32,025 bases of DNA from Ruminiclostridium sp. (GTDB taxonomy: Bacteria; Bacillota; Clostridia; Oscillospirales; Ruminococcaceae). Every line of letters begins with the position of its first letter. The first letter of the stretch is position 1. The position numbers and the translations under genes were made by a program. The notes below the pieces were generated by a model, which worked only from the letters and a program-made list of their open reading frames with translations, made no database searches and was not told the DNA's origin. The DNA is taken from assembly GCA_017635095.1 (NCBI GenBank), contig JAGBMA010000114.1:1-32025 (forward strand), written 5' to 3'. This document shows, piece by piece, positions 30,168-32,025 of this stretch.

Positions 30168-30581
30168 ATGACGCTTAAAAGACTTATATTCCTTATTATC
30201 GGCTGCATTTGTCTCGGGCTTGGCACGATAGGCGTGTTCCTCCTAATTCTTCCGACAGTCCCGTTTTACCTTGCGACGGTCTTCTGCTTTTCTCAGAGCT
30301 CGAAAAAACTTCATGACTGGTTCGTAGGCACCGGCTTGTATAAAAAACATCTGCAGTCCTATGTGGAGAAGCGGGGAATGCTCCTTAAAACAAAGATAAG
30401 CATAATCGCCGCCGTGACCCTGCTCATGGGAACGGGTGCTGCTATCATGGCAGTGAAGGGGATATGGATACCGTGTGTTATCATAGCTGTTGTCTGGGTC
30501 GCCCACATAATTTACTTCATCTTCGGCGTAAAGACCGTGACCGGCACAGACGGATCCTCCGCAGACGACAGCGCATCATAG
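30168..30581 (+). CDS. YbaN family (DUF454) membrane protein
   Basis: 137-residue membrane protein with two hydrophobic hairpins: residues about 5-40, LIFLIIGCICLGLGTIGVFLLILPTVPFYLATVFCFSQSS, and about 78-118. The first block with its G-x-LP-TVPF pattern and the following KLHDWFVGTGLYKKHLQSY are diagnostic of the YbaN/DUF454 family. The biochemical function is unknown; in several bacteria the gene sits near heme or iron genes, which fits this location. GGAGA precedes the ATG. It is the last gene of the operon with the two half-transporters and is followed by a bidirectional terminator-like structure. The C-terminal tail is Ser/Asp/Thr-rich. Confidence 0.92.
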   Translation: MTLKRLIFLIIGCICLGLGTIGVFLLILPTVPFYLATVFCFSQSSKKLHDWFVGTGLYKKHLQSYVEKRGMLLKTKISIIAAVTLLMGTGAAIMAVKGIWIPCVIIAVVWVAHIIYFIFGVKTVTGTDGSSADDSAS

Positions 30582-30601
30582 AACGCCGGCGGTACTGCAA
30601 T

Positions 30602-30704
30602 AAAAAACTCCGCGCACATCTCGAAGGTTTCTTTTTATACGCGCATCGTGCGCGTCTTTGGAAACCTTCTGTACGACGTCCTGTCGTCTGTGTACGGAGT
30701 TTTT
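30602..30704. terminator. Bidirectional terminator-like long stem between convergent genes
   Basis: AAAAACTCCG (30603-30612) pairs with CGGAGTTTTT (30695-30704), extended inward by CACA/TGTG (30615-30618 with 30689-30692). Read either way, the stem runs into a T tract (plus TTTTTGTTG, minus TTTTTTATTG), so it should stop both the YbaN transcript and the opposing diguanylate cyclase transcript. Unlike a simple terminator it encloses the branched element at 30623-30687. Confidence 0.75.
30623..30687 (+). ncRNA. Branched structured element, copy A (candidate RNA motif)
   Basis: Two hairpins lie in series. Helix 1: GAAGGTTTC (30623-30631) with GAAACCTTC (30661-30669), interrupted by an internal loop (5' strand TTTTTAT, 3' strand CTTTG), then ACGCGC (30639-30644) with GCGCGT (30650-30655) around a 5-nt loop ATCGT. 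Helix 2: ACGAC (30673-30677) with GTCGT (30683-30687) around GTCCT. The same layout with different bases occurs at 31888-31948. I cannot name a known family. Its expression as an RNA is inferred, and orientation is set by comparison with copy B. Confidence 0.5.
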
Positions 30705-30710
30705 GTTGTA

Positions 30711-31814
30711 TCATGCTCTTACAGCTTTAAGGGCGCGCTTATTGTCGTACATTCTGTCATCGGCTTCCTTGTAAACTTCGGTGAAGCTTTTGTCGGTCTC
30801 CCATGAGGAATAGCCTATCGCACAGACATAACCCGCTTTTTTCACGGCTTTCCGCATCTTCTCGGACATCTCACGGACATCTTCGTCGGACTTGTTAAGG
30901 CATATCGCGGAGAACTCGTCGCCGCCGACCCGGTAGATATAGCAGTTTGGCAGGCACGACCTCTTGAGGGCATTTGCTGTGGCTTTGAGCGCAGTATCGC
31001 CCTCGTTATGCCCGAGAGTATCGTTGATCTTCTTGAGGTCGTTGAGGTCTATGCTCATAAGATGTGAGATGCTGCTCCTGCCGAAACGCTCGATGTCGGC
31101 ATTGAACGACTCGCGGTTCAGTATCTCCGTCAGCGGGTCGAAGCGGAAATGGTCTATGTGCAGATGCAGGTAGTAGAACACGATATCGAGTGCGACTACG
31201 CCGATAAGTATTCCGCGGAGTGAGAAGAGAAATTCCGCGAGAAAACCCATGAATGAAAGCACCCCGCACAGAAGGAGTATCACCATTTCCTCGCTCATGC
31301 CATTTTTCCGTGAAAGGAATGCAAGCGCAAACAGAAACATCAGATATACCGCCGAAAGCAAATGGGGTTCATACGCGAAAATGCCGCGTCCGATAGTTCC
31401 GTCGTCCTTGAAATAGAAGAAAAGGTCGGTGAAAAGGCACGGGATAAGGACTGCAACATTTATCAGCGACGGCAGGTAGGTTACAAGCACAGTATTCTTG
31501 TGGCCTATTATACGCGAAGACGCGATAGACACAAGGCTTGCCATAAGTATTATCCTGATGTCGTAGCCGAGCATTGAAAACATCCGGTGGACAAGATCGG
31601 GAATGCCGGTATTCAGAAAGGTGTCGTAGGCGTAGTAGTCGAGGTTGTCCACAACTATAAGCGCGAGAAGAAGTATCACCGACGGTATGAATTTCTTCGT
31701 AAGCTCTTTTTCATATATGTAGTTCGATTTAAGAAAGAAGAACAGGAATACGATTATCAGAACGGGAATACAGTTGATCTGCACAAGGCTCTGCAGAAAA
31801 GCGTCCTTAATCAC
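30711..31814 (-). CDS. Membrane-bound diguanylate cyclase (GGDEF)
   Basis: 367-residue signalling protein, expected to make cyclic di-GMP from GTP. The N-terminal half (about residues 1-190) has six or more hydrophobic segments and probably acts as the sensor; no named sensor domain is recognised. The GGDEF domain spans about residues 205-365: DPLTEILNRESF, SIDLNDLKKINDTLGHNEGD and the intact active site RVGGDEF near residue 297, ending with ADDRMYDNKR. The inhibitory RxxD site five residues before GGDEF is absent. The start is GTG at 31814 with GGAGG about 12 nt upstream, a rather long spacing. No clear promoter was found. Structured elements lie on both sides (30623-30687 and 31888-31948). 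No phosphodiesterase or cyclic-di-GMP riboswitch is present in this window. Confidence 0.92.
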   Translation of the reverse strand: MIKDAFLQSLVQINCIPVLIIVFLFFFLKSNYIYEKELTKKFIPSVILLLALIVVDNLDYYAYDTFLNTGIPDLVHRMFSMLGYDIRIILMASLVSIASSRIIGHKNTVLVTYLPSLINVAVLIPCLFTDLFFYFKDDGTIGRGIFAYEPHLLSAVYLMFLFALAFLSRKNGMSEEMVILLLCGVLSFMGFLAEFLFSLRGILIGVVALDIVFYYLHLHIDHFRFDPLTEILNRESFNADIERFGRSSISHLMSIDLNDLKKINDTLGHNEGDTALKATANALKRSCLPNCYIYRVGGDEFSAICLNKSDEDVREMSEKMRKAVKKAGYVCAIGYSSWETDKSFTEVYKEADDRMYDNKRALKAVRA

Positions 31815-31887
31815 TTTACAGTGTATCCTCCTCGTTATAGGGAACCTCTAAAAACCCAATTTGAGAGAAAAAGAGCTATCCACTATA

Positions 31888-31948
31888 TGCCGCTTTGTAT
31901 GCGCGCGTCCTGCGCGCTTTTGGCGGCAATACCACGGCTTCCTGCCGT
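31888..31948 (+). ncRNA. Branched structured element, copy B (candidate RNA motif)
   Basis: Helix 1: TGCCGC (31888-31893) with GCGGCA (31923-31928), internal loop TTTGTAT / TTTTG, then GCGCGC (31901-31906) with GCGCGC (31912-31917) around GTCCT. Helix 2: ACGGC (31934-31938) with GCCGT (31944-31948) around TTCCT. It has the same order of parts as copy A, with compensating stem changes, but lacks an obvious outer closing stem; flanking partners could lie beyond the window. Confidence 0.5.
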
Positions 31949-31975
31949 GACCGTCTACTGCGTCAAACCTCCTAA

Positions 31976-31991
31976 CCGGGCGCCAGCCCGG
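31976..31991. repeat. Perfect small palindrome near window end
   Basis: CCGGGC (31976-31981) with GCCCGG (31986-31991) around GCCA. The remaining sequence 31949-32025 contains no gene; the window ends in intergenic DNA. Confidence 0.6.
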
Positions 31992-32025
31992 CTTCGTCGG
32001 CTTTCCTTGTATCCGATGCCAGAGC

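Follow-up and report, generated by a model that had tools for sequence, protein, structure and literature searches.

The window analysed here, a stretch of 32,025 nt from the genome of a Ruminiclostridium sp. (the host; G000), carries two copies of a hairpin-built motif that belong to a dispersed, structurally conserved family. The motif is probably a bacterial double-hairpin element, a mobile DNA unit of about 67-76 bp that is non-autonomous, and its best reading is that of an element kept foldable by its manner of spread, which would work like REPINs, Rickettsia palindromic elements (RPEs) or mitochondrial double-hairpin elements. On this reading, tiny double-hairpin elements reach dozens of copies in a group of rumen bacteria (Ruminococcus) and can enter a gene in frame, and genome annotation should flag the motif as mobile and not as an RNA gene.

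Two copies of the motif around a diguanylate cyclase gene

Copy A occupies positions 30620-30689 of the plus strand as a covariance-model match and is made up of a TCG-type start, a first hairpin with an internal loop (H1, 30623-30669), a linker and a second hairpin (H2, 30673-30687; ACGAC GTCCT GTCGT). H1 consists of an outer helix (30623-30631/30661-30669) and an inner helix (ACGCGC/GCGCGT) with the loop ATCGT, and its helices covary across the family. Copy B, likewise a covariance-model match on the plus strand (31882-31950), has a GCCGC-type outer helix. With a covariance model built from nine copies (R1) copy A scored 91.4 bits and copy B 67.5 bits, and with a second model built from 63 copies (R2) they scored 84.7 and 65.7 bits (31883-31950 for B), both copies being among the sequences from which both models were made. 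The first-pass annotation had placed two such copies here, with near-constant single strands and compensating differences in the paired bases, and the helix and loop strings bear this out. Both copies have a six-pair inner helix with a 5-nt loop, followed by a 5-pair hairpin with the loop GTCCT or TTCCT; the internal-loop strand is TTTTTAT in A and TTTGTAT in B and the second strand CTTTG and TTTTG, respectively, while the outer helix is GAAGGTTTC/GAAACCTTC in A versus TGCCGC/GCGGCA in B. The region of copy A together with its surrounding stem folded with z values of -7.5 and -6.9 on the two strands (0 of 200 shuffles as good); folding of the copy B region was weaker (z -3.3 and -1.8; 1 and 12 of 200 shuffles as good).

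Copy A is held in the loop region of a longer, terminator-like stem (30603-30704), the arms of which, AAAAACTCCGCGCACA (30603-30618) and TGTGTACGGAGTTTTT (30689-30704), are 88% complementary. Preceded by an A-tract and followed by a T-tract, this host stem is terminator-like on both strands (flank score 10) and stands between two convergent genes, both outside the element: a DUF454 protein gene (30168-30581, plus strand; PF04304, E 1e-30) and the diguanylate cyclase gene between the copies (30711-31814, minus strand; GGDEF domain, PF00990, E 2e-23). The stem is not listed by a terminator scan restricted to loops of 3-8 nt, which is blind to long-loop stems. No empty counterpart of copy A was found in the ten genomes searched, one of which, the host itself, matched the neighbouring gene.

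Size and distribution of the family

The motif goes beyond a chance resemblance between two copies, as blastn with copy A as query returned 17 matches in the host genome, among which are A itself and two tandem pairs, and R1, for which A and B were among the nine founding copies, found 79 at E<=1. R2 matched 64 copies in G010, 49 in G033, 39 in G013 and 64 in G014. A covariance-model search for tens of further copies in a shared genomic context had been proposed by the first-pass annotation; the copies exist, in the host and in each of these four relatives, and no shared context was found, the copies inspected lying in many different places with a few inside genes, by crude calls from a simple longest-ORF caller whose context counts are unusable because GC-rich palindromes create spurious frames.

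Among 60 genomes, the host included, R1 matched 15, all of the host genus; the 24 genomes from other genera gave no match. Wider searches with R2, in which absence is weak since 12 candidates were scored per genome, matched at least eight of 396 genomes of the family, four of them in another genus (g118) with divergent copies, and at least eight of 394 genomes of the order, several of which were common to the family set. A degenerate DNA pattern run over named genomes gave 62 stretches, every one from a record whose title names Ruminococcus, Ruminiclostridium, Clostridia or Ruminococcaceae; several came from ruminants. Single weak matches outside these genera, in distant genomes, were taken as chance: L126, in what we take to be a DnaN-like frame, and L141, presumably in a permease-like frame. 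These two were left out of the nearest-relative, close-copy, 121-copy flank and 155-copy loop and pair counts given below, and are still contained in the 12-nt left-flank (157 copies), 123-copy permutation, 3063-cell and 157-copy loop counts. The motif pattern had no exact match in viral contigs, and a phage or plasmid origin found no support, the region of neither copy having matched in phage or plasmid records.

The copies fetched for comparison were our own selection among the matches listed. For 84 of 155 copies, tandem copies included, the nearest relative was found in the same genome (shuffled mean 20.6, maximum 39), which fits spread within genomes. Rfam 15 gave no match at the gathering score in the whole window and none at E<=1 in 30500-32025; in 11 further loci the only matches at the gathering score were an FMN riboswitch and two tRNAs, all outside the motif copies. 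No description of the family was found in the titles and opening abstract lines of open-licence papers on Ruminococcus or on bacterial double-hairpin and terminator insertions.

Covariation of the helices and scarcity of wobble pairs

When 63 copies were aligned to R1, 97.1% of the base-pair cells held standard pairs, both sides had changed at 18 of the 20 pairs and all three helices covaried, which is the significant covariation that the first-pass annotation had suggested looking for. None of 500 shuffles reached the paired percentage or the covariation score, and sliding one side destroyed the signal; one shuffle came up to the number of pairs with changes on both sides and four to the number of pair types, and none of the 500 did so for the other three measures. 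The same paired changes are seen in an alignment made from sequence only. The conserved single strands are the two apical loops, which are NTC-type in 151 of 155 inner hairpins and in 151 of 155 second hairpins; both hairpins share the loop NTC[C/G]T, ATCGT is the commonest inner loop (45 of 157), and both sides of the internal loop are rich in T.

Textbook covariation alone does not amount to a functional RNA, and a count of wobble pairs helps to separate the two: RNA would tolerate G-U and not A-C. Among 3063 cells from 157 copies, 2951 are Watson-Crick, 37 G-T (1.2%), 30 A-C (1.0%) and 45 other, and omission of the two doubtful rows changes these counts little (3032 cells; 2922, 36, 30 and 44, respectively), with no difference in frequency between G-T and A-C (P=0.46). 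As a control, G-U accounts for 41 of 419 stem pairs (9.8%) in 20 tRNAs of the fetched loci, from mixed genomes, and is about eight times rarer in the family stems (Fisher P=1e-18); the tRNAs contained no A-C pair, so that only the G-U fraction is compared. The pair counts were taken from model-fitted alignments, which favour pairing; as such models generally accept G-U more readily than A-C, the missing wobble should not be a product of the model.

Comparisons between copies, which are not mutually independent, gave a similar picture. Close copies (1-6 differences) differ at 8.1% of unpaired sites and 0.8% of base pairs, and copies at 7-12 differences show 102 both-arm versus 33 one-arm changes, the latter including 6 G-U and 18 A-C, again without an excess of G-U. 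Because G-T is no commoner than A-C, RNA-level selection is not supported, and we read the pair statistics as selection on, or renewal of, the duplex hairpin itself. The first-pass annotation had left the choice between an RNA fold under selection and a family of folding repeats; the evidence favours the second, in view of the insertions of motif length described below and the lack of RNA-type wobble.

Presence and absence of copies as a unit

Comparison of filled with empty sites shows single copies to be present or missing as a whole. The flanks of the copies were joined and searched against all fetched loci, which yielded 253 junction-spanning alignments, many of which join tandem or repeat copies. 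We examined 22 hand-chosen pairs, of which an untidy one (L054 versus L205) and a self-match (L058 versus itself) were dropped and to which L108 versus L284 was added; in the 21 comparisons, covering 19 copies, the net insertion measured 67-76 nt, which is about the length of the motif. As the filled and empty sites come from different species or paralogues, precise deletion is possible in any single case. The 70-nt unit showed no clear, constant target duplication at the empty sites and no constant flanking sequence, the 12 nt to the left of 157 distinct copies containing no invariant position; the copies start with a weak TYTCG-type sequence.

The clearest insertion lies inside a protein gene, the glycerate kinase gene (PF02595) of the host (L108/L282; G000 C16), where the element contributes 24 extra codons without a stop and the frame is kept. 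The gene is uninterrupted in G010 and G033, and a truncated second glycerate kinase in the host (L286; G000 C202), which has no insertion, is 94% identical downstream of the site; in addition, a solved glycerate kinase aligns on either side of the 24-codon insertion. A conjugation-type ATPase gene in g118 probably also carries a frame-keeping insertion, since its TraG/AAA-type frame, with P-loop matches, contains a similar open insertion as read from its own sequence only.

A larger element carrying copy B

Copy B is a passenger of a classical MITE bearing terminal inverted repeats (TIRs), the left part of which, with the terminal inverted repeat GGGAACCTCTAAAAACCC..., spans 31840-32025 of the plus strand and runs off the contig end. 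Complete MITEs of this kind, found by their ends in the fetched loci, number 24 and measure 213-397 bp, with the ends GGGAACC.../...GGTACCC; reading of the alignments revealed a 4-bp direct repeat at the ends of about 16 of the 24. Judged by TIRs and target-site duplication, the larger element is a MITE, having both in most of its complete copies, and the 70-nt unit is not. The MITE separates the ribosome-binding site of the cyclase gene from any upstream promoter. With copy B a passenger of the MITE, A and B reached the surroundings of this gene by different routes, and the flanking of the gene by two copies is best explained by insertions that took place independently, of A on its own and of B within the MITE. 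Many contigs of the draft host genome end in this MITE.

Complementary flanks, nested and tandem copies

Complementary flanks (score >=8) embrace 13 of 121 non-redundant copies, against 0.54% of 2420 control boxes from the same loci; a 123-copy version gave the same number (13), and none of 20000 permutations reached the observed mean. Several of the 13, copy A among them, are terminator-like, with an A-tract, a GC-rich stem and a T-tract. The other 108 lie outside any detectable stem, and the excess may reflect either a preference for such targets or a tolerance of insertions there. The palindrome GGAAAT/AATTTCC in G014 is split by a copy at its centre, to within a base, and three copies in G013 lie within the inner hairpin of another copy or at its margin. 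Copies also stand in tandem and in inverted pairs.

Alternative explanations

The strong covariation would suit a functional non-coding or cis-regulatory RNA family under selection at the RNA level, whose minus-strand GGA-loop hairpins might for example bind CsrA. Of the 155 copies, 92 read GGA on the minus strand in the inner loop and 117 in the second; 134 have it in at least one of the two loops and 75 in both. The host genome has one CsrA gene (G000 C98:47224-47373), and some copies, as read from the sequence, follow a promoter-like stretch (for example C9:10394 and C60:1082). We nevertheless consider an RNA family improbable, because G-U is scarce and no commoner than A-C, the unit shows presence/absence insertions with one copy inside the glycerate kinase gene, Rfam has no match in the window, and the commonest inner loop, ATCGT, carries GGA on neither strand; the GGA loops may nonetheless be linked to CsrA, or may be no more than the conserved loop of the element. 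A hairpin module used in transcription terminators and selected there would account for the embraced copies, several with T-tracts and copy A among them, and is more improbable still: 108 of 121 copies are not in such flanks, others are found within a gene or arrayed in tandem, and the excess is equally explained by tolerance of insertions in terminator loops. Even less credit can be given to the motif being merely part of the copy-B MITE, with all other copies as its remains. MITE flanks like those of copy B do surround 37 of the 79 host matches of R1, but the remaining 42 lie outside the MITE, so that a pure MITE was rejected, and the insertions of about 70 nt (67-76 nt) at empty sites, shorter than the shortest complete MITE of 213 bp, contradict it.

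For a non-autonomous mobile element, as we prefer to read the motif, Y1 transposase genes are the obvious mobiliser candidates by analogy with REPINs (PMC3116915). The family could then be of the REP/REPIN type, its two hairpins being recognised by a Y1 transposase (RAYT or IS200-like) that would mobilise it, and its general anatomy and behaviour are indeed alike. Y1 genes (PF01797) were detected in 8 of the 15 carriers within the genus; G013 has seven, and the host two fragments at contig ends. They also occur, however, in 6 of 21 genomes of the genus without an R1 match, and no Y1 match was obtained in the high-copy draft genomes G014 (64 copies, 99% complete) and G033 (49 copies, 96% complete) or in the carrier drafts G001, G006, G015, G024 and G034. 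Moreover, the family has no fixed flanking tetranucleotide, and the single contig of G013 gave no support for IS200-like strand-biased insertion, orientation relative to replication being 23 versus 17 of 40 matches (P=0.43), counted by eye with origin and terminus from a noisy skew. No enzyme could be linked to the family. Movement by a Y1 transposase appears unlikely to us, though less so than the three explanations above. The contigs of the two host fragments (L118 and L119; G000 C32 and C214) end in the N-terminal part of seemingly one Y1 transposase gene, which is probably an IS200-like element present in multiple copies that the assembly conceals.

Comparison with known element families

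By behaviour the family appears to stand closest to REPINs, RPEs and mitochondrial double-hairpin elements, and as tested here it lacks at least one defining feature of REPINs and of RPEs. REP and REPIN elements of Pseudomonas and enterobacteria have a fixed 5' tetranucleotide such as GTAG, and the family has none, its left flank lacking an invariant position. They are described as short, dispersed, palindromic hairpin elements with compensatory stem changes and with clusters thought to have formed by insertion (PMC3116915), and the family is equally short, dispersed and palindromic and has such stem changes. REPINs are, however, composed of two inverted REPs and lie near RAYT genes, whereas the motif has two unlike hairpins and no consistent Y1 gene, as judged by presence at the genome level (8 of 15 carriers and 6 of 21 others); unlike REPINs, the family also has a copy inside a protein gene.

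RPEs are reported from intergenic positions and, as in-frame fusions, from within protein genes (PMC2229807), a likeness that extends to the in-frame insertion in glycerate kinase, with its empty counterparts, and to the open TraG/AAA-type frame. In size and build the two differ: RPEs measure 105-146 bp and have a long stem-loop and terminal inverted repeats, whereas the unit described here measures 67-76 nt and is a double hairpin with conserved loops. The double-hairpin or repetitive hairpin-forming elements of fungal and sponge mitochondria are described between genes, in rRNA genes and, without frameshift, in protein genes (PMC2800124). They resemble the family in anatomy, being small, mobile-looking and built of one or two hairpins; they reside in organellar genomes, and their way of moving is presented as unsettled too. 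EFA-1 and Pae-1, repeated bacterial stem-loop families (PMC2267715), share with the family a predicted double hairpin according to their description; the main text of that paper does not mention Ruminococcus.

A possible mode of spread

We infer that the element would act as folded single-stranded DNA, its two hairpins with the common loop being recognised by an enzyme supplied in trans; the equal loops on both hairpins suggest such two-site recognition. It would insert without target duplication, often at a palindromic or hairpin-forming site, and its stems would remain perfect either through the exclusive spread of copies able to fold or through the use of one arm as template for the other. 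Copying from arm to arm would explain covariation without wobble intermediates.

A more specific version of this scheme can be put forward tentatively, and we hold it to be possible, if doubtful. The hairpins would serve as the form that is recognised and, quite often, also as the landing site (terminator loops, palindromes and the hairpins of earlier copies), folds would grow by the insertion of folds, arms would be renewed by arm-to-arm copying, and the enzyme would belong to a class so far not connected with repeats like these. If landing of hairpins in hairpins were a real target rule, it would provide a testable model for the growth of complex folds and for a mobilising activity.

Some individual arrangements of copies may be recorded. 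Inverted pairs of copies 17-52 nt apart were seen in three genomes (L054, L253, L257 and L260; 548557/548681 and 661554/661651 in G013), and such pairs may act or move as composite units. One copy (L099:1495-1567; G000 C9:10394) lies between a TTGACA/TATAAT-like promoter and a T-followed hairpin, a layout like that of a small-RNA gene and possibly an accident. At 2499872-2500079 of G013 (L064), near tRNA matches, three or more double-hairpin units follow one another in tandem, and their outer helices are of more than one type.
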